IMG/VR virus record: IMGVR_UViG_3300034104_001590
Span: 1 to 64,000 of that record
Strand: one strand, 5' to 3'
Source: a virus
Length of the DNA stretch: 64,000 nucleotides
Shown here: piece by piece, positions 13,912-60,341 of the stretch
How positions within the stretch are numbered: position 1 is the first letter of the stretch
How the letters are laid out: each line of letters begins with the position of its first letter
Program-made: the position numbers and the translations under genes
Notes under the pieces: model-generated
Told to the model about the DNA's origin: nothing
What the model saw: the letters and a program-made list of their open reading frames with translations, nothing else
Database searches by the model: none

Positions 13912-13919
13912 CAAATATA
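13912..13919 (-). promoter_or_regulatory. Promoter -7 element (TATATTTG)
   Basis: On the minus strand this reads TATATTTG, matching TAnnTTTG, in the 39-bp gap between the 782- and 1444-residue genes and 17 bases upstream of the ATG at 13894. No clear upstream TTTG is visible. Confidence 0.5.
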
Positions 13920-37997: not shown

Positions 37998-40061
37998 TTA
38001 ATCCATAATTTTAAGGATCTTCCCTGTATTCTTATCTACTCTAGCCAACTTCATTCTATAATTCGTTTCCTTCGATTGAACATATCGCATAACTACTTGC
38101 TTCTCTCCTTCATTACCTCTTATATTCTCTGGTTCATATCTAGCGTGAGCCTGTGCGTTGATATACGCAAAAGTTATAGCGAATATAGCATCATCATAGT
38201 CATATCTGGTATCTGCTGCCTGGTATCTTGTCTGCCTATGGCTAGTAGAACTCTTCAGATCTTTCTCTACAAAGGTTTTTAGCTGTTCCCATATCCAAGG
38301 AACATCAATATTATTTGCATAAGAGTCAATCATCTCTTCCGCTTTAGCAATAATACGTGGAGCAGTGTTAGCTTTGTTAGAAATTCCAAACCATTTACCT
38401 CCATACGTCTGAAAATACTCTGGCAATTGGGTATTTGCAGTGAATTTCATCTTAAATCCATGTATCTCCTGGAAATCTACGTGCATATCACCGATATTAT
38501 TCTCTACAAGCTCCTTAACCCCTCCTCTTCTCTGCTGATCGTAATATAAACTCTGTAATAACACCTGTAAATAGGTGTATTTAAACTTTTTATCCCTATG
38601 GAATACTACTGAAGATACAGAATTTGTAAGCGCATCCCATATTGCACTACACATCATAGAGTGTCCAGTCTCAGAGTTGATGGGATCGGTTCCTTGATAC
38701 CACCTATTCTTCCAAACTTCGTTATCTGGTGGATGATGTATGACAACAGCCGTAGTAGAAATGTCTTCCCTTCCCGTTGTGGGAACCCATCTAGCTCCAA
38801 TTATACGATATTCCGTTATTAAATCAGGAGTTGGTTGTGAATGATCCATTATAGGTTCAAAATATCCATACTCAATAGGAACATCTTTACTGTATATGTC
38901 GTTTAATCGTTGGTTACAGGTATGTATCGGCACAAGAGTTCTTGCTTTCCGTAGGAACATATCATCAATTGTGATTGGATAATGTTGGTGAAACTGCACT
39001 TTAGCAATTTCTCCTTTTTTGGTTCCCTCAAGTGCCAAATAGGCTTTACGCTCGTTGTTGATGTGCTCATCATTAACTCCTCTTCGTGCGTATGCGTTGA
39101 AAAATAACGGTATGATTCCATATTCATAGTTCTTTTCTTTCCATTGTGATAGACACATTTTAAATTCTGCCTCAAATACAGATCCTCCCTTATCCATTTC
39201 CCCTCCAGTTCCCCAAGCGATAAACTGCTGTTGCATCGTCATCTTCTTAGTTTCTGGGTTATACTTAAATAAAGCAGGTCTACCTTCCCTCATCATCTCG
39301 CCAAATATGTCAAATAGACCAATCTCATCGATAAATACTGCTGATGGAGATCCACCATTGATAGCATCTACCTGTGGGCTATCTACCTGGAAGCGCGAAG
39401 CACCCCCATCATCTCTACCTTTTTTATCTCCTTTCTTATCAAAGGACATTACTTGATCTGTCCAGTTCTTTACTTCTTGAGCTAGGTAATCTGGAATCTT
39501 TGTATATGTCCACTTTACCTTATCTCTAAAGATTTCTATCCCCTTATCTTTTGAGTGAGTAACGAATTTAATGAAGTATGATTTGTTGAGGTTTACTCGC
39601 TTCATTCCTGCAAGACACATTGTCGTAGTAAAACCAATCTGTCGGGCCTTACCTATCATCATAGAATATCCGCAATCAAACAAATATAACAGAACTCTTT
39701 GAGCTTCCCAGGCTTGATACCTAAGCATACCGTGATCTGCCTTATCTTCCTTTATCCATCCGTATTTATTACAGAAGTAAAGTGTGTTATCGTTGCATCT
39801 GGTAATTTCACGAGATAGGAAATCATACTGATCCTCTTCATTGTCGAAGTCAGTAATGAGTGTATCATCTTCTAGCCATTGTCTGGCTTGTTCGCAATAA
39901 AGCTCAAAGCTCCTGTATTTAATCTTGTTCTGCCAACCAGAGTTTATAGAGTCAATCCAATCTACAAATTCCTTTGGATAATCAAACTCAGCGTGATTAG
40001 GCTTCCATTGAGATGTCTTTACGAGCTTTGTAACTCTATCGTCTTTTTCTTTAAGACGCAT
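37998..40061 (-). CDS. terL: Terminase large subunit
   Basis: This 687-residue protein has the ATPase and nuclease halves of a DNA-packaging motor. The Walker A variant is IGKARQIGFTT near residue 135, and the Walker B motif is AVFIDEIGLF near residue 243. The RNase H-like nuclease region has an Asp in WYQGTDPINSETG near residue 455 and a C-terminal acidic pair in YDYDDAIFAI near residue 640. It cuts concatemers and drives DNA through the portal. No recognisable small terminase gene is adjacent; one of the tiny Lys-rich genes upstream is possible but unproven. Confidence 0.95.
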   Translation of the reverse strand: MRLKEKDDRVTKLVKTSQWKPNHAEFDYPKEFVDWIDSINSGWQNKIKYRSFELYCEQARQWLEDDTLITDFDNEEDQYDFLSREITRCNDNTLYFCNKYGWIKEDKADHGMLRYQAWEAQRVLLYLFDCGYSMMIGKARQIGFTTTMCLAGMKRVNLNKSYFIKFVTHSKDKGIEIFRDKVKWTYTKIPDYLAQEVKNWTDQVMSFDKKGDKKGRDDGGASRFQVDSPQVDAINGGSPSAVFIDEIGLFDIFGEMMREGRPALFKYNPETKKMTMQQQFIAWGTGGEMDKGGSVFEAEFKMCLSQWKEKNYEYGIIPLFFNAYARRGVNDEHINNERKAYLALEGTKKGEIAKVQFHQHYPITIDDMFLRKARTLVPIHTCNQRLNDIYSKDVPIEYGYFEPIMDHSQPTPDLITEYRIIGARWVPTTGREDISTTAVVIHHPPDNEVWKNRWYQGTDPINSETGHSMMCSAIWDALTNSVSSVVFHRDKKFKYTYLQVLLQSLYYDQQRRGGVKELVENNIGDMHVDFQEIHGFKMKFTANTQLPEYFQTYGGKWFGISNKANTAPRIIAKAEEMIDSYANNIDVPWIWEQLKTFVEKDLKSSTSHRQTRYQAADTRYDYDDAIFAITFAYINAQAHARYEPENIRGNEGEKQVVMRYVQSKETNYRMKLARVDKNTGKILKIMD

Positions 40062-40203: not shown

Positions 40204-40367
40204 GATTTCTTCTTTTTAAATTTAGACATAAACTTTTCTTTGGCTTCCATCTTTTTAGATTCGCCTTTCTCGTGTTTCATTTTATCTTTCTTAGAAGAGT
40301 ATTTCTCTTCTGCTTCCGAGCCACCATATTCCATGATAGCTTTTTTAAGTGCCATTCCTCTTTTCAT
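40200..40367 (-). CDS. Small basic protein
   Basis: This 55-residue protein starts MKRGMALKKAIMEYGGSEAE and ends in a lysine cluster (KFMSKFKKKKS). It overlaps the preceding stop by one base (TAATG) and the next start by four bases. The sequence contains the phrase MEYGGSEA followed by charged helices, which I recall from small Bacteroidota phage proteins. Function unknown. Confidence 0.6.
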   Translation of the reverse strand: MKRGMALKKAIMEYGGSEAEEKYSSKKDKMKHEKGESKKMEAKEKFMSKFKKKKS

Positions 40368-40543
40368 TAGTCGCAGTATTTTTTATCTTTAGTATTCTTA
40401 TACATCAACTTAAAAGGAACCTTAGAAGTTGGTGCTTCATCTTTAAGGTCAGCAGCAGCAGGTGGTCGACCTTCTACCCTTCCCTTGTCTACATAGCTTC
40501 CATTCTTTTTAGGATTAGAAGCGTAATACTTATCAGTTTTCAT
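40367..40543 (-). CDS. Small basic protein, first of the terminase operon
   Basis: This 58-residue protein begins MKTDKYYASNPKKNGSYVD and has the ordered core GRVEGRPPAAADLKDEAPTS, then a Lys/Tyr-rich tail. It follows the TATATTTG element at 40556-40563 with a short leader. It is the first of three overlapping small genes leading into terminase. Function unknown. Confidence 0.6.
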   Translation of the reverse strand: MKTDKYYASNPKKNGSYVDKGRVEGRPPAAADLKDEAPTSKVPFKLMYKNTKDKKYCD

Positions 40544-40555
40544 AATCTTTTTTTA

Positions 40556-40563
40556 CAAATATA
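40556..40563 (-). promoter_or_regulatory. Promoter -7 element (TATATTTG) for the terminase operon
   Basis: On the minus strand this reads TATATTTG, 13 bases upstream of the ATG at 40543. It is the fourth of four such elements within 460 bp. Confidence 0.6.
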
Positions 40564-40588
40564 AGTAATTTTAATTACCAATTATTAT

Positions 40589-40647
40589 AAACACAAAACC
40601 CTGGGCTTTCAACTCCAGGGCCTTATGCATAAACCTTTAAATATGAA
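40589..40647 (-). ncRNA. Putative small non-coding RNA 3
   Basis: This interval runs from just after the TATATTTG element at 40653-40660 to a terminator. The terminator stem is CCCTGG/CCAGGG (40599-40604 with 40615-40620), followed by a T-rich tract. The 5' part contains the perfect palindrome TTATGCATAA. There is no credible reading frame. The start is estimated from the promoter position. Confidence 0.5.
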
Positions 40648-40652
40648 CGATA

Positions 40653-40660
40653 CAAATATA
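40653..40660 (-). promoter_or_regulatory. Promoter -7 element (TATATTTG) of RNA 3
   Basis: On the minus strand the element directly follows the T-run of the previous terminator, forming the joint sequence TTTTTTATTATATTTG. The same junction recurs at the next unit. Confidence 0.55.
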
Positions 40661-40661
40661 A

Positions 40662-40903
40662 TAAAAAACCCTAACAGTCTGCGGTAGCTAATCGCACTTA
40701 TTAGGGGTTGTTACTAGTTATATGGTTGTTTATGAAGGCAACGTCTTGCACCCATAAAGCAAGTCCACTTTCCCAGTAACCAAAAAGTCCAGTGTAGTGA
40801 GCAGATCTTACGGTATGCTGTCTGGAACTTGGCCTATGTCTATCTCAACACAGGGGGGAATAAGTTATTCTGAGCGCGCAGTTCTAATGAGATGCGGAAT
40901 AAC
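40662..40903 (-). ncRNA. Putative structured non-coding RNA 2 (about 240 nt)
   Basis: The region lies between a TATATTTG element and an intrinsic terminator and has no credible open frame. Read on the minus strand it forms successive hairpins. H1 at the predicted 5' end is GTTATTC/GAATAAC with inner CGCA/TGCG (40864-40903). H2 is AAG-TCCAG/CTGGACTT with a bulge and inner AGCA/TGCT (40785-40830). H3 is TTTATG/CATAAA with inner GCAA/TTGC (40729-40758). The terminator is AACCCCTAA/TTAGGGTT with inner TGCG/CGCA (40667-40709), then six T. The predicted start coincides with the base of H1. It matches no RNA family I can name. Confidence 0.6.
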
Positions 40904-40909
40904 AATAAG

Positions 40910-40917
40910 CAAATATA
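40910..40917 (-). promoter_or_regulatory. Promoter -7 element (TATATTTG) of RNA 2
   Basis: On the minus strand this TATATTTG starts two bases after the T-rich tail of terminator 1. The predicted start site is 40903-40904, exactly where hairpin H1 begins. Confidence 0.6.
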
Positions 40918-40918
40918 A

Positions 40919-41000
40919 TAAAAAAAGGTAGCTATTAACTACCTTCCGACCAGGGTTACCCCAATCCATTTGTTTGAATCAAACGATTCTTTGTTAGTGA
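40919..41000 (-). ncRNA. Putative small non-coding RNA 1
   Basis: This RNA of about 80 nt would follow the TATATTTG element at 41006-41013. On the minus strand it contains GAATC/GATTC and GGG/CCC hairpins. It ends in a perfect terminator AAGGTAG/CTACCTT (40925-40945) followed by seven T. It could instead be the 3' untranslated tail and terminator of the RepL-like gene, whose stop codon is at 41015. Confidence 0.45.
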
Positions 41001-41005
41001 GAATA

Positions 41006-41013
41006 CAAATATA
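41006..41013 (-). promoter_or_regulatory. Promoter -7 element (TATATTTG) of RNA 1
   Basis: On the minus strand this reads TATATTTG immediately after the stop codon of the RepL-like gene. It is the first of four spaced elements of identical sequence. Confidence 0.5.
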
Positions 41014-41014
41014 A

Positions 41015-41566
41015 TTAAATTTCTATATTATCATAATATTCTTCCAAATCTATATTCCTCCTAGGCATTCGATCAAATTCCTTTACGCAATAGAACATCT
41101 TTTTTATCGTGCCCTTATAGAAGTATATAGGGTTAATCATATAAGTCCTCCTATTCTTATCCATAGTAAACCGAATGACATCGTGCGCACACAGCTCAGA
41201 TACACTCTTCATTACATAACGCATACTCATATCCGTCAACTGCTGAATATCCCTTAAGCTATAATTCTTTAAAGCATTCCCATAGTTCATTTGTTTAACA
41301 AAGAACCGAAGCATTTTATTTGTCGCTGGCTTTAGCTTATCCATAATATCCAGAGACTCAGAGAAGGCCACCATATACCTCATCTTCTTTCTTCTAAATA
41401 AGTTTTCTATCAGGACATCTACTTCTGAATTATACGCCTCGGCCAACTGATTGAACTGCCCTTTCTCATCTTTGTAGTATAAGTCAAAGTGTTTAATCTT
41501 CTTGGCTAATACCCTATCAGCTTCTAGTAACAGTAAATCAAATACAATGTTATTCTTCTCCTTCAT
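41015..41566 (-). CDS. RepL-like winged-helix protein
   Basis: This 183-residue protein has a helical N-terminal half. It is followed by a winged-helix segment with the order seen in RepL-type plasmid initiators: TNKMLRFFVKQMNYGNALKNYSLRDIQQLTDMS (residues 88-120), then a recognition-helix region, then RRTYMINPIYFYKG near residue 150. RepL proteins start plasmid replication. In phages the same fold may also act as a regulator. It overlaps the upstream gene by 17 bases. Confidence 0.6.
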   Translation of the reverse strand: MKEKNNIVFDLLLLEADRVLAKKIKHFDLYYKDEKGQFNQLAEAYNSEVDVLIENLFRRKKMRYMVAFSESLDIMDKLKPATNKMLRFFVKQMNYGNALKNYSLRDIQQLTDMSMRYVMKSVSELCAHDVIRFTMDKNRRTYMINPIYFYKGTIKKMFYCVKEFDRMPRRNIDLEEYYDNIEI

Positions 41567-42260: not shown

Positions 42261-42268
42261 CAAAGATA
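42261..42268 (-). promoter_or_regulatory. Promoter -7 element (TATCTTTG), near the HNH start codon
   Basis: On the minus strand TATCTTTG ends 7 bases before the HNH ATG. Transcription would start at or next to the start codon, implying a leaderless or near-leaderless mRNA. Two GGTGGTAACAA repeats lie just upstream and could bind a regulator. Confidence 0.4.
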
Positions 42269-42286
42269 ATAAATAATCCTAATACT

Positions 42287-42325
42287 TTGTTACCACCTCT
42301 ATGCGTAAACAACTTGTTACCACCT
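42287..42325. repeat. Direct repeats of TTGTTACCACCT
   Basis: TTGTTACCACCT occurs at 42287-42298 and 42314-42325, with TATGCGTAAAC between them. They lie 19-57 bases upstream of the HNH operon's promoter element, a suitable place for operator sites. Confidence 0.7.
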
Positions 42326-42680
42326 ATAACCAACTAAAATCCCTATCCCCATTGACTTCTAACAAAATCCTCTATATACTGTTTATCCCTAAAGATATAA
42401 GCAAGAAAATCAATGATTAGTTTATAATACTAAGTTATGTCGGTTATGTAATAAACGATATTACTTATTATGCGTAAACGTAGCTCACCATCCCATAGTA
42501 CTATTACCCCTCCCATATCCTAATTCCCCTACACCAGATATAAGTATTTCATCTATTATCCCTCCTGGTTTTTTAATTATCCACTGGTCGTATCAAAAAT
42601 AAATCTGTATTCTTCAAGGACTTATACGTAGTAACCTATCCCCTCCCTATTCTCAAAGGAAAGTCAATCTCAACAATCAC

Positions 42681-42708
42681 TTGCATTGACTTAACTTAAC
42701 TATCTTTG
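42681..42708 (+). promoter_or_regulatory. Promoter (TTG, 17 bp, TATCTTTG)
   Basis: TATCTTTG at 42701-42708 has a TTG 17 bases upstream (42681-42683). It points rightwards towards the early genes 0.85 kb away. Confidence 0.55.
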
Positions 42709-43047
42709 TTTCAGTTAGTTACATTCACTTTGTTAGTGCTTGGATCCCCTTTATTTTTGCTCTTATTTATTGCTAACTTATTAATTTTCAGTGCGTTATA
42801 TATTCTTGATGATATGCTGAGAATAATAATTGCACACTTTTATTCATTAATTATGAACATACCCACCTAAAATATGGTTTAATCTTGCATAAAAATATGG
42901 TAACAATACGTCATTTAATATCTACTATTTCACTGCAAAAGTCACGTTTTTTGTGCTGAAATCAATAATTTTTAGTGTTATTTAAATCATTGATTATCAG
43001 TTAGTTAGCTAATTTATATCTAATTATTTTTAATTATTTTTAAATTT

Positions 43048-43081
43048 TTTGTTATCAATTCAAAATTTATATATATGTTTG
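43048..43081 (+). promoter_or_regulatory. Promoter (TTTG, 22 bp, TATGTTTG) for the early operon
   Basis: TTTG at 43048-43051 and TATGTTTG at 43074-43081 are spaced by 22 bp, within the range of Bacteroidota promoters. It follows a very A/T-rich stretch and would give a leader of about 475 nt for the gene at 43563. Confidence 0.6.
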
Positions 43082-43112
43082 TATCGTCATCATTGGTTAA
43101 CGAACTACTAAA

Positions 43113-43142
43113 ATGAATGACACACACGAAAAGACTAGTTAA
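43113..43142 (+). CDS. Possible 9-residue leader peptide
   Basis: The frame encodes MNDTHEKTS and then TAA. It lies about 25 bases after the predicted transcript start, and an A-rich sequence precedes the ATG. It overlaps CACACACG, which can pair with the loop of the downstream hairpin at 43201-43244. It may be chance; a short ORF in this place could couple translation to leader folding. Confidence 0.25.
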   Translation: MNDTHEKTS

Positions 43143-43200
43143 CATATATTCTTGTTAATCTCGAAGTTTACTAGTTGTTTAGGTTAATCCTAATTAGTTC

Positions 43201-43244
43201 CTATCTTATAGGCGTGTGAAGTTCTTTGTTTATTGATAAGATAG
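43201..43244 (+). promoter_or_regulatory. Hairpin in the early leader with 5'-complementary loop
   Basis: CTATCTTAT (43201-43209) and ATAAGATAG (43236-43244) form a perfect 9-bp stem. The loop contains CGTGTG (43213-43218), complementary to CACACG (43123-43128) near the transcript start. The layout resembles leaders A-C, but the stem is not followed by a T-run, so it is not a standard terminator. Confidence 0.45.
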
Positions 43245-43334
43245 CGTGTAAAAAATTAAATTTTAACGGGTAGACGCTGCACCTAGTCCATGCAAGTTAA
43301 CACTAGTAGAACGTTGTGAAACGTGGCTATAAAC

Positions 43335-43446
43335 TAACATAGGGATATGTTATGGTCTATTGCTTTGAAAGAAAGTATGCATCTAATCGCGTATATGTAT
43401 GGGGGTAAACTATGTTTACTCAGAACGCTATTAATATAAATTAATA
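43335..43446 (+). promoter_or_regulatory. Series of short hairpins in the early leader
   Basis: Three perfect hairpins follow each other: TAACATA/TATGTTA with a GGGA loop (43335-43352), GTAAAC/GTTTAC with a TAT loop (43405-43419), and TATTAAT/ATTAATA with a 4-base loop (43429-43446). They lie within the predicted 5' untranslated region of the gene at 43563. Confidence 0.45.
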
Positions 43447-43562
43447 AACGAAGATAGGTTAACACCTTGAAATAGAATAGAAAAAAAATTCGCCTTGTTT
43501 ACTATGAGTAATTAACTTCGAGCGAAACGAAGCGAGGCACTAACCAATTAATAAACACAAAA

Positions 43563-47373: not shown

Positions 47374-48249
47374 ATGTGTATAGCAATTCTTAATACAAAA
47401 CAAACTACTCTTAAAAAACAATTACTTAAAAATTGTTGGGAGAACAATGGCGATGGTGCAGGTATGTTGTATATCGACAACGACAATCAACTTAAAGTAT
47501 TCAAAGAAATGAAGAGCTTTAATACGTTCTATAACAACTACATAGACATCAAGCAAAAGTATGGTAAGCGTAACATTGTATTGCACTTCCGTATCTCTAC
47601 TCACGGCAAGATTAACAAAACAAATTGTCACCCATTCCTTGTTGATGACAACTTAGGATTCGTTCATAATGGTATGATATACAATGCACCTACGAGCACT
47701 GAGTATTCAGATACATATATGTTCAATGAAACAATACTCAAGAAGTTCAAGCCTGGATTCGAATACGATGATGACATACTAGACTTATTAGCTGAGTATA
47801 TCGGCAATGGTAGTAAGTTAGTATTCCTCAATTCAAATGATGAGTGGGCTATTGTTAATGAGGCAGCAGGACATTGGAATATGGGCTGTTGGTTTTCTAA
47901 CTCTTCATACAAGCAAGTCAATGATTGGTATGACTTCGGAGGTATCAAGAAGCAAAAGTCTACTGCTAAGAAAACTACTCCTACATTCGATAGAACATTC
48001 CATTGGACAAGTAATGAGAACTATATCAGTGCTCACCAATCACAATACTGCACAGGCTGCGATATGATGCTTAGTGGCTTGAAAGAAATAGAAGATGGTA
48101 TGTGTGCTTGGTGCAAGGAAGAAGAATCAATTAGAGAGCTAGAAGATATGACATTGGATTGTGAACTATGTGATGGCACTAATGGTAAATACAATCACTA
48201 TTACAATGCTTTCACTTGCGAGGAATGCGATAAGTATCTAGGAGCATAA
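47374..48249 (+). CDS. Class II glutamine amidotransferase-like protein with C-terminal zinc-ribbon-like region
   Basis: This 291-residue protein begins MCIAIL, so Cys2 can act as the N-terminal nucleophile after Met removal, as in Ntn-type glutamine amidotransferases. NNGDGAGMLYID, VLHFRISTHG, NCHPF and GFVHNGMI (residues 25-100) match the glutaminase domain core. The C-terminal ~70 residues have four Cys pairs (CTGC, CAWC, CELC, CEEC) resembling one or two zinc ribbons. It would release ammonia from glutamine. It sits 26 bases after the amidoligase, so the two probably work together. Confidence 0.75.
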   Translation: MCIAILNTKQTTLKKQLLKNCWENNGDGAGMLYIDNDNQLKVFKEMKSFNTFYNNYIDIKQKYGKRNIVLHFRISTHGKINKTNCHPFLVDDNLGFVHNGMIYNAPTSTEYSDTYMFNETILKKFKPGFEYDDDILDLLAEYIGNGSKLVFLNSNDEWAIVNEAAGHWNMGCWFSNSSYKQVNDWYDFGGIKKQKSTAKKTTPTFDRTFHWTSNENYISAHQSQYCTGCDMMLSGLKEIEDGMCAWCKEEESIRELEDMTLDCELCDGTNGKYNHYYNAFTCEECDKYLGA

Positions 48250-48277: not shown

Positions 48278-48832
48278 ATGGCAAACAACTGTTGGAATTA
48301 CGCAGTCTTATCGGGTGATAAGGCTGCATTAGATGAGATTCAAGAACGATTCTCTAAGTATGATGACACAAATTACTTCACTGAGTTTGGAGATATTGTG
48401 CTTAAAAAAGAAATGAAAGAAGACTATTCATCATTAAGCTTCGATGAATACTACCAATACGGAACAAAGTGGTGGGATTTCAACATAGATGAAAGAACAG
48501 ACAATACGTTAATCATATCAGGAGATAGTGCTTGGAGTCCACCTCTAGAATTACTACGTCAAATATCAGAAGTGTATAACGTAACAATAGAGGGCGAATA
48601 CAATGAATGTGGAATGGGCTTCGGAGGATTCTTTGTGTGTGAAGATGGTATCTTATCAGATAATGAAATGACTTACTTTGAATATCAATTAGAATCAGAT
48701 AGAGAATGGGCTATCGATGAAGTTATCAATAACTTACAAGATTGGGATGAAGAGTTTGATGAAGATGCTTACCCTCAGCTTACTCAACAAGAGAAAGAAT
48801 ATATTAAAGAACAATTAAAGAAAGAAGTATGA
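48278..48832 (+). CDS. Api92/YubB-like ferredoxin-fold protein
   Basis: This 184-residue protein shows the pattern of the Api92/YubB-like domain. The start is MANNCWNYAVLSGDKAALDEI, the middle YQYGTKWWDFNID, and then a SGDSAWSPPLELLRQISEVYNV motif near residue 87, followed by EGEYNECGMGFGGFF. It is found on plasmids and in phages and has no established activity. It overlaps the next gene by four bases and follows the amidotransferase by 28 bases, so it may belong to the same functional unit. Confidence 0.65.
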   Translation: MANNCWNYAVLSGDKAALDEIQERFSKYDDTNYFTEFGDIVLKKEMKEDYSSLSFDEYYQYGTKWWDFNIDERTDNTLIISGDSAWSPPLELLRQISEVYNVTIEGEYNECGMGFGGFFVCEDGILSDNEMTYFEYQLESDREWAIDEVINNLQDWDEEFDEDAYPQLTQQEKEYIKEQLKKEV

Positions 48833-49047
48833 AAACATATTATGTAGTTCAGTATAACGATTGCTACGGCAACGGAGATACTCAATTAGAGGTAATTGTA
48901 GAAAGCCACGAAGATTTTATTAAGTGGTTAGAAATTCATAACAAAGAAAGAGCAGACTTACAAGACATAGATGTTGATGATGATGACTTTTGTTATGAGG
49001 GTGAAGATGAATTCGATTTAATACCATTAACATTATATAAAGCATGA
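48829..49047 (+). CDS. Small acidic conserved phage protein
   Basis: This 72-residue protein starts MKTYYVVQYNDCYGNGDTQLE and contains an EDFIKWLEIHNKERAD helix. It ends with an acidic stretch and the phrase FDLIPLTLYKA. This small family is common in Bacteroidota phages and mobile elements. It is coupled by ATGA overlaps at both ends. Function unknown. Confidence 0.6.
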   Translation: MKTYYVVQYNDCYGNGDTQLEVIVESHEDFIKWLEIHNKERADLQDIDVDDDDFCYEGEDEFDLIPLTLYKA

Positions 49048-49220
49048 AAGACTTATTTGAGACACCAGAACTAATACCTAATAATGTAATGAGTATCCTA
49101 GAAACATTCGAAGATAATACATACGATGAATGCGATAGAATACAAAATGAATTAGAGCATATAGGATATACATTCGACTACTACCTAGATGCTGAACCTT
49201 TTAATCTTAGAAAGTTATGA
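49044..49220 (+). CDS. Small conserved phage protein
   Basis: This 58-residue protein ends with the recognisable pattern LEHIGYTFDYYLDAEPFNLRK, which I recall from many small phage proteins of unknown role. It is coupled to both neighbours by ATGA overlaps. Confidence 0.6.
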   Translation: MKDLFETPELIPNNVMSILETFEDNTYDECDRIQNELEHIGYTFDYYLDAEPFNLRKL

Positions 49221-49369
49221 CAAATGAAATGAGATTAGATGCTATCGAATTAGCATTGAAAGTTAAAAGAATTGAATTAGATAGACACCTACTGCAAGCA
49301 GTAGTTCAAATCGTAGACTTAGTAAATGAAAAAGGATACAAATTAACTATTAAAGATTTAAAGCCATGA
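49217..49369 (+). CDS. Small helical protein
   Basis: This 50-residue protein is predicted mostly helical (RLDAIELALKVKRIELDRHLLQ), with a beta-like end (KLTIKDLK). ATGA overlaps on both sides support it. Function unknown. Confidence 0.5.
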   Translation: MTNEMRLDAIELALKVKRIELDRHLLQAVVQIVDLVNEKGYKLTIKDLKP

Positions 49370-49581
49370 CAGAACAAGAAGCTAAAGAAGTATTACGCAA
49401 GGCAGGATACTTTGTGGATAATCTATGGCATATAGATGACGTAGACTTAGATGGGGCAAGCAATGAAGATAAAATGCAGATACTAGATGATGTATTTTCT
49501 AGTAGACATCTTATCTCAATGATATTCGAATCTATTGCAGATGCTAAAGACTATTATAAATTCAAAAAACAAAACAAATGA
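49366..49581 (+). CDS. Small protein of unknown function
   Basis: This 71-residue protein begins with a helix (TEQEAKEVLRKAGYFVDNLWHI), then has acidic segments and a final helix. The opening resembles small Bacteroidota phage proteins starting with EAxxxLRxAGYFVDNLW. ATGA overlaps link it to both neighbours. Confidence 0.6.
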   Translation: MTEQEAKEVLRKAGYFVDNLWHIDDVDLDGASNEDKMQILDDVFSSRHLISMIFESIADAKDYYKFKKQNK

Positions 49582-49733
49582 GACAACAATTAATTTATAT
49601 CATTGAAACTTATTCAAATGATGATTTAACAATTAATGATTGGGTTGAGATTGCTATGGAATCAGAAACACAATTAATATCTAGAGTTCACAAAATATTA
49701 GAATATTACTTTAACGAAAATCAAACAATATGA
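49578..49733 (+). CDS. Small protein of unknown function
   Basis: This 51-residue acidic helical protein (SNDDLTINDWVEIAMESETQ, then ISRVHKILEYYF) is coupled by ATGA overlaps at both ends. It is not recognised. Confidence 0.5.
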   Translation: MRQQLIYIIETYSNDDLTINDWVEIAMESETQLISRVHKILEYYFNENQTI

Positions 49734-49882
49734 AAACATACCACATTTGCTATCTAATCGGAAATGAATTATGCTCAGGGATAAATATCTTAGCAGAGAA
49801 TTACATTCACGCAATCGTAGAGTTCCAGGATAGATTTAAAAATAAGAAAATCATTTATGTAACAGAACTATTAGGCGCATGA
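49730..49882 (+). CDS. Small protein of unknown function
   Basis: This 50-residue protein starts MKTYHICYLIGNELCSG. The layout is beta hairpin, helix (ENYIHAIVEFQDRF), beta strand (KIIYVTEL). It is linked to its neighbours by ATGA overlaps. It is not recognised. Confidence 0.5.
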   Translation: MKTYHICYLIGNELCSGINILAENYIHAIVEFQDRFKNKKIIYVTELLGA

Positions 49883-50037
49883 TACGATACATACAATCAA
49901 TATTATCATTGATACTAATATGGATAACGTTGAACACAAACGTAAATGCATTCGTCAAGGTAATGATAACAATCGTATGCTTAACTTATGTAGTAACATT
50001 ATTAATTTCATTATTAGTCAAAGGAAAAAACAATTAA
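49879..50037 (+). CDS. Small inner-membrane protein, two predicted spans
   Basis: This 52-residue protein contains two hydrophobic segments (SILSLILIWITL and VMITIVCLTYVVTLLISLLV) and a basic end (KGKNN). It is coupled to the previous gene by an ATGA overlap. It ends the chain of seven overlapping small genes that starts at 48829. Confidence 0.5.
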   Translation: MIRYIQSILSLILIWITLNTNVNAFVKVMITIVCLTYVVTLLISLLVKGKNN

Positions 50038-60310: not shown

Positions 60311-60338
60311 AGGGAGTTAATAGCTCCCTTTTTATTTT
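60311..60338 (+). terminator. Intrinsic terminator after ssb
   Basis: Stem AGGGAG/CTCCCT (60311-60316 with 60324-60329, 7-base loop) is followed by a T-rich tract. It lies 16 bases after the ssb stop. Confidence 0.85.
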
Positions 60339-60341
60339 ATT

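Follow-up and report, generated by a model that had tools for sequence, protein, structure and literature searches.

Phage noncoding RNAs without an assigned role, such as GOLLD, ROOL and the RNAs of the T4 tRNA cluster, are a long-standing puzzle. The T4 stable RNAs (species 1 and 2) are small and lie in the tRNA cluster, and no function has been assigned to them; to our knowledge, they are not known as swappable cassettes with promoters of their own. A packaging RNA of the phi29 type would be expected to accompany the packaging genes throughout its family. GOLLD is a phage-encoded structured noncoding RNA that often lies near tRNA islands and combines a conserved 3' part with a variable 5' part, its function likewise not assigned (PMC12286853); family C, defined below, resembles it in each of these respects. 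ROOL RNAs occur in phages and prophages near tRNA islands and self-assemble via kissing loops (PMC12286853). Racrs are small phage RNAs that occur singly and have a promoter of their own, much as the units described here appear to, and the Racr hairpin binds host proteins (PMC10651486).

Here we analyse an array of small-RNA units in a virus genome. The window, i.e., the whole stretch of DNA analysed (64 kb), covers nearly all of a 64,128-bp IMG/VR virus record; loci compared with it carry L numbers. At the level of sequence, these comparisons establish the array, the structures and motif conservation of its RNAs, the turnover of cassettes and the co-occurrence of RNA families.

A promoter-terminator array before the terminase operon

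The array is encoded on the minus strand; a RepL-like gene precedes it, and it is followed by a 58-aa gene with which the terminase operon begins. An RNA of a retron or diversity-generating retroelement would adjoin a reverse transcriptase gene; among the window genes scanned, those flanking the array encode the RepL-like protein, small proteins and TerL. The features of the array, in the direction of transcription, are as follows:

41015..41566, minus strand: upstream flanking gene for a winged-helix protein resembling RepL (Pfam RepL, 21.2 bits against a cut-off of 20.3)
41006..41013, minus strand: promoter-like element 1, TATATTTG, directly 3' of the stop codon of the RepL-like gene
40922..41000, minus strand: unit 1 (family A), predicted RNA of ~79 nt, placed by fold z and array position
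40947..40967, minus strand: motif A, GGATTGGGGTAACCCTGGTCG, an 8-bp hairpin with conserved wobble pairs
40923..40947, minus strand: intrinsic terminator of unit 1, strong
40910..40917, minus strand: promoter-like element 2, fused to the T-run of terminator 1
40662..40904, minus strand: unit 2 (family C), predicted RNA of ~240 nt, placed by covariance model (CM) and covariation
40653..40660, minus strand: promoter-like element 3, fused to the T-run of terminator 2
40592..40647, minus strand: unit 3 (family E), predicted RNA of ~56 nt, fold z -3.59, loop AGTTGAAAGC
40556..40563, minus strand: promoter-like element 4, for the 58-aa gene and the terminase operon
40367..40543, minus strand: downstream flanking gene, conserved 58-aa protein (MKTDKYYASNPKKNG..), present in 55 loci
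37998..40061, minus strand: terminase large subunit, TerL (phrog_5989, E 9e-9)

The first-pass annotation had reported four identical TATATTTG elements within 460 bp of the minus strand. They span 458 bp, with 5' ends at 41013, 40917, 40660 and 40563, and no more than two per 460 bp occurred in any of 100 order-3 Markov simulations. Across the 64 kb, the minus strand carries 14 copies, compared to about 4 in order-3 Markov sequence. The -7 element of Bacteroidota-type promoters is TAnnTTTG, and all four TATATTTG copies match this element of the Bacteroidota sigma-type promoter; for the -33 element (TTTG/TTG), a TTG near -33 was present at the fourth copy only. Elements of the TATATTTG type also occur directly upstream of the gene starts at 13919, 33043 and 37988, as expected of a Bacteroidota-type -7 promoter. 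The two repeated junctions of terminator and promoter were likewise recovered: the joint TTTTTTATTATATTTG, in which a T-run passes into the next promoter, occurs at 40925 and 40668, with no further copy in the rest of the window. On the plus strand, between two genes of the opposite block, the sequence at 60311-60340 forms another joint of terminator and promoter, with 87% identity over 30 bp to the unit 1 joint.

All three terminators had been described as clear. This held for terminators 1 and 2, of which the latter (~40709-40667) is a good hairpin followed by T6 that a simple scan overlooked because of its large apical part; for terminator 3 (hairpin at ~40627-40592), the word was too strong because the hairpin ends in a weak tail, TTTTGTGTTT. 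With a transcription start ~6 nt past TATATTTG, the RNAs would measure about 80, 240 and 55-60 nt, as predicted. Compared with dinucleotide shuffles, units 1 and 3 gave a better fold than 200 of 200 (z -3.64 and -3.59, respectively) and unit 2 a better one than 195 of 200 (z -2.2). ARAGORN called no tRNA or tmRNA in the window, and Rfam gave no tRNA match over the array units; hence we do not regard the units as transfer RNA or tmRNA. The proposal of three small-RNA units is upheld by a different line of evidence for each, namely covariation in unit 2, recurrence of the unit 1 motif at ~59 phage sites, and the presence of the unit 3 loop on different stems.

Structure and distribution of the RNA families

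Family C is defined in this analysis by an H2-H3-H4-H5 structure with apical GCATACCGTNAGATCTGCTC (motif C), and unit 2 has this structure. Its parts in the window are:

40858..40903, minus strand: exchangeable 5' domain (GTTATTC..CGCTCAGAATAAC), of a type like that in L105, L108 and L116
40833..40854, minus strand: helix H2, 98-100% of cells paired, compensatory changes
40785..40830, minus strand: helix H3, containing a bulged U; the invariant motif forms its cap
40798..40818, minus strand: motif C, GCATACCGTAAGATCTGCTCA, single copy in the window
40710..40780, minus strand: helix H4, with a variable insert hairpin
40669..40706, minus strand: helix H5 and terminator, apical loop with the palindrome TAGCTA

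A hand-drawn structure of 41 pairs was scored on an alignment of 30 full-length copies. Cells were paired in 94.0% of cases, compared to 33-45% when the partners were slid, and 127 cells had changed on both sides in a compensated manner, compared to 3-23 in the slid controls; in helix H5, 10 of the 14 pairs showed changes on both sides. RNAalifold independently arrived at nearly identical helices. The first-pass annotation had suggested a covariance-model search in related phages as a check; here, such a model recovered 16 additional full-length copies, at 99-167 bits, among loci that had been recruited by the short motif alone. The window's own unit 2 scored 204.6 bits (E 8e-59) with CM R1, as a member of the training set. 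The 5' domain varies, with another type in L007 and L009.

Motif C recurs far beyond this locus. The invariant apical motif GCATACCGTNAGATCTGCTC was found in more than 100 phage contigs, and the apical 20-mer CATACCGTNAGATCTGCTCA in 55 viral stretches. When the pattern was relaxed, at least 119 viral stretches matched, a few of them by chance (e.g., L144, L175, L186). Open frames over the motif C sites are mostly short, which argues against a protein-coding role, and the matches in long frames (again L144, L175 and L186) were taken as chance hits of the relaxed pattern. Across 84,980 bacterial and archaeal species genomes there was a single match, in a Nitrosomonas sequence that lacks the stem, which is about the number expected by chance; judged from these sequences, motif C is phage-restricted. 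Besides the full-length RNA, the motif sits on a smaller carrier, an RNA of ~75 nt with H2 and H3 only and TAnnTTTG 56-57 nt upstream of the motif, and on a third type of carrier in tRNA arrays. Comparison of the window with L007 or L009 gave 97.4% identity for the noncoding core of unit 2, above the 76-78% of the RepL gene and the 86-87% of TerL, consistent with either strong constraint or recent transfer. In three TerL relatives (L077:1569-1625, L079:4264-4319, L080:3354-3410), an H2-like hairpin and terminator lie right before TerL; these hairpins score 28 bits and lack motif C.

The motif of unit 1 is similarly widespread. Motif A has no other match in the window at up to three mismatches (0.01 expected), and its form GGAYTGGGGTRWCCCYGRTCG was found in 76 viral stretches, corresponding to ~59 distinct sites in phage contigs. 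It occurs right before terminators, within terminator stems, at three-way junctions and, once, in the D-loop of a tRNA-Ile gene. Its third pair (position 4 with 18) is U.G at 44 of the 59 sites, C.A at 13 and Watson-Crick at 2. Since U.G and C.A share a common wobble geometry, the geometry itself seems to be selected, and this pattern points to a wobble geometry that is recognised. In the tRNA-Ile case (L278), removing the motif restored the ARAGORN call, compared to 0 of 117 controls. By the same procedure of motif removal and a repeated ARAGORN run, insertion was confirmed at only 1 of 59 sites and is not a general rule. By eye, L246, L259 and L248 look similar to the insertion in L278.

Three further families accompany these RNAs. 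Family D has no copy in the window and is present in L009, with 33 good sites in all; its structure, based like that of family C on ~30 sequences, has 95.0% paired cells (28-45% in slid controls) and 94 compensated cells (1-8 in slid controls). In L013, L018 and L021, the family E loop AGTTGAAAGC sits on stems that differ from that of unit 3. V is a type of 5' domain of the C RNA; V and E, both identified with short regular expressions, are the less secure assignments. Members of A, V, C, D and E share 31 loci, unrelated ones among them, and their order differs: A-V-D-C in L103, L135 and L140, A-V-C-D in L083, A-D-V-C in L009 and A-C-E in the window. Each motif is present in a single copy per record (32 phage records, with zero matches for reversed-pattern controls), and a single motif can sit on several carriers, i.e., a terminator hairpin, a 3' region, a multi-hairpin RNA or, once, a tRNA D-loop. 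Upstream of 79 sites, TAnnTTTG gave 34 bin hits at 50-150 nt in the sense direction, compared to 3 antisense. All family and motif counts refer to contigs rather than independent events, and the invariance of the motifs is partly built in because the searches used exact patterns; the flanking helices lay outside the search patterns and provide safer evidence.

Cassette turnover and genomic setting

A search with TerL yielded 80 loci for comparison. Relatives share the 58-aa gene downstream and, where covered, the RepL-like gene upstream, with 0 to 4 units in between: none in L008 and L010, A+B in L006, A+C in L007, A+C+E in the window and A+B+D+C in L009. Further afield, L013, L018, L021 and others form a group with a single short unit, in some cases with loop AGTTGAAAGC on a different stem. 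As the units are joined by the T-run and promoter sequence, recombination at this joint would be the simplest reading of how cassettes are exchanged. The first-pass annotation had counted absence or randomness of the region in relatives as evidence against its reading; the content of the site does vary, but those cassettes that were examined more thoroughly are each conserved in further phages.

Away from the terminase site, a tRNA gene lies within 2 kb of 41 of 98 distinct motif C sites (~42%) and 18 of 59 motif A sites. The RNA sits in tRNA arrays or adjoins tail-fibre, ferredoxin, metallophosphoesterase or ATE_C-like genes, and among the neighbours tested in L094, L100, L102, L105, L118 and L131 no packaging gene, and no terminase, was recognised. 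Genes with an ATE_C domain (arginyl-tRNA-protein transferase) lie directly downstream of the unit-C RNA at L118:6338-7099 and L131:1185-1859. Downstream of motif C in L096, L110, L117 and L133 are odd tRNA-like stretches (TCAGGTGGCGGAA..GGTTCGAATCC), mostly uncalled by ARAGORN, which may be heavily inserted tRNAs.

The hosts are probably Bacteroidota, to judge from the promoter element and a gene with a Fib_succ_major domain. Neither megablast nor tblastn identified close isolates, and TerL gave only distant T4-like matches. Comparison of the RNAs with isolate phages by blastn gave short partial matches only, two of which led to Crassvirales carriers. These are intergenic elements of the gut Crassvirales cr6_1 and cr124_1 (L291:1190-1345 and L292:1150-1310), probably structured and unannotated in their records, which share carrier segments (GCCCTAAGTACACGGGATCG; CTACCACGC..GCGTACCAGGGTAG) with the motif RNAs and differ in their apical inserts.

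Three other regions of the window were recorded. On the plus strand, seven tiny genes of 50-72 aa stand in a row at 48829-50037 with a 4-bp overlap each, and a class-II glutamine amidotransferase domain at 47374-48249 adjoins a 506-aa gene, possibly in connection with DNA or nucleotide modification. Between divergent gene blocks, ~1.3 kb nearly without open reading frames (42264-43562) is perhaps an origin or control region.

Candidate functions and relation to known phage RNAs

Our preferred reading, which we put forward tentatively and rate at somewhat short of an even chance, is that three independent small-RNA genes make up a cassette array here, their products being trans-acting accessory RNAs that bind protein. 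Each cassette would comprise a promoter, a structured RNA and a terminator. Units 1 and 2 belong to the phage-encoded RNA families A and C, and unit 3 (E) is a predicted small hairpin RNA with a conserved loop. Given that neighbouring cassettes share the joint, recombination there could add, drop or swap whole cassettes. The apical hairpin would be the working part of an RNA ligand that the scaffold merely presents and stabilises, and the presence of a single-copy motif on differing carriers fits such a ligand. Once transcribed, the RNAs may act in trans by binding a conserved host protein, as a decoy or inhibitor that would benefit the phage in host takeover or counter-defence. Decoy or protein binding is the likeliest role, and the protein bound may instead belong to the phage itself or be an enzyme of tRNA processing. 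For a counter-defence decoy, a 20-nt motif that is invariant across phages of presumably different hosts is odd because defence targets vary. On a wider and more doubtful reading, Bacteroidota phages may draw on a common pool of interchangeable RNA parts, an RNA counterpart of accessory anti-host protein loci, in which a few single-copy hairpin motifs on many unrelated carriers would be traded as promoter-RNA-terminator cassettes.

Among the alternatives, we give most weight, while still considering it unlikely, to self-assembly of unit 2 into a dimer or larger particle by kissing of its palindromic loops, in the manner of GOLLD and ROOL. Those phage RNAs, also found near tRNA islands, oligomerise via kissing loops and A-minor contacts (PMC12286853). 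In unit 2, 19 of 22 distinct H5 segments carry loops that are perfect palindromes differing by phage (UGAUCA, UUGGCCAA, UUAGCUAA and, in the window, UAGCUA), and one class of H4 insert contains UGGUACCA or AGGUACCU. However, most of the palindromic H5 loops are UGAUCA, so that few independent changes have been seen; H5 variants with a GACG tetraloop and many short H4 inserts lack a palindrome, and the short motif C carriers of ~75 nt lack H4 and H5 altogether. The palindromic loops thus leave room for RNA-only assembly. A role in tRNA biology, in which the RNAs would be transcribed as parts of tRNA arrays and lure or guide enzymes that process or cleave tRNAs, appears improbable to us. It would accommodate the tRNA genes near many sites of both motifs, the motif A copy in a tRNA-Ile D-loop and the ATE-like genes that follow the RNA in L118 and L131, but the window has no tRNA gene, most sites lie away from tRNA genes, and tRNA islands are also frequent landing spots for accessory phage genes. 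We consider it similarly improbable that the units regulate phage or host mRNAs by base pairing. Small RNAs bounded by a promoter and a terminator are typical of such regulators, and open loops are present; yet the window contains no complement to motif A or C elsewhere at up to three mismatches, the motifs are invariant across unrelated phages, and the stems covary instead of staying fixed. Pairing with or mimicry of rRNA was also assessed, and similarity or complementarity to E. coli 16S and 23S rRNA was no better than for shuffled sequences.

The remaining alternatives have little probability. Transcriptional insulation by stacked terminators and promoters, with the RNA bodies as by-products, would suit the short third unit and the several relatives with a single short unit at the site. 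Nevertheless, the RNA bodies of C and D covary, their conservation reaches far beyond the locus, and in unit 2 the core exceeds the neighbouring genes in conservation; insulation is disfavoured for units 1 and 2, and for the array as a whole we regard it as very unlikely. Just as unlikely is that the units are RNA anti-CRISPRs, i.e., solitary repeat units that copy host CRISPR repeats. Like Racrs, they are solitary, promoter-driven in their layout, hairpin-forming and phage-encoded (PMC10651486), but the exact-pattern survey of 84,980 genomes, which included their CRISPR arrays, returned for motif C nothing beyond the one chance match. Least probable of all is a service in DNA packaging after the manner of phi29 pRNA, which the first-pass annotation had entertained and which the position of the array, right upstream of the terminase operon in the window and relatives, might suggest. 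This proposal is not supported: L008 and L010 have an equivalent terminase operon and no cassettes, and elsewhere the RNA occurs among genes not recognised as packaging genes.

The preferred reading of protein-binding cassette RNAs would, if host factors are bound, define a new class of exchangeable RNA effectors whose conserved hairpins would be usable as tools. The short covarying families, the single-copy motifs of ~20 nt and the natural variants that carry or lack cassettes at one locus make the targets directly searchable.

Against the described systems, the cassette RNAs stand apart in several respects. Rfam searches of the window and relatives at gathering and lax thresholds returned only tRNAs and chance matches, and neither GOLLD nor ROOL was matched by its covariance model at either threshold. 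GOLLD often exceeds 800 nt, whereas unit C spans ~160-240 nt, and the two differ in sequence and helices. ROOL (~660 nt) is unrelated to unit C in sequence and fold, and self-assembly of unit C is merely suggested by its palindromic loops. The solitary copy and own promoter of Racrs have parallels here, with one copy per genome and a promoter-like element upstream; however, Racrs copy host CRISPR repeats, and motif C has no counterpart in bacterial genomes by exact-pattern scan. In contrast to packaging RNAs of the phi29 type, the cassettes do not accompany the packaging genes throughout the family. The T4 species 1 and 2 RNAs, compared via Rfam only, resemble the units as small phage RNAs co-located with tRNA genes. 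In the literature outside subscription journals and preprints, no description of these families was found; families A, C and D are absent from Rfam and were previously unlisted. Phage RNAs near tRNA islands without an assigned role were already known from GOLLD and ROOL (PMC12286853). What is new, as far as we can tell, is the arrangement as a cassette array, together with a single motif being grafted onto many carriers.
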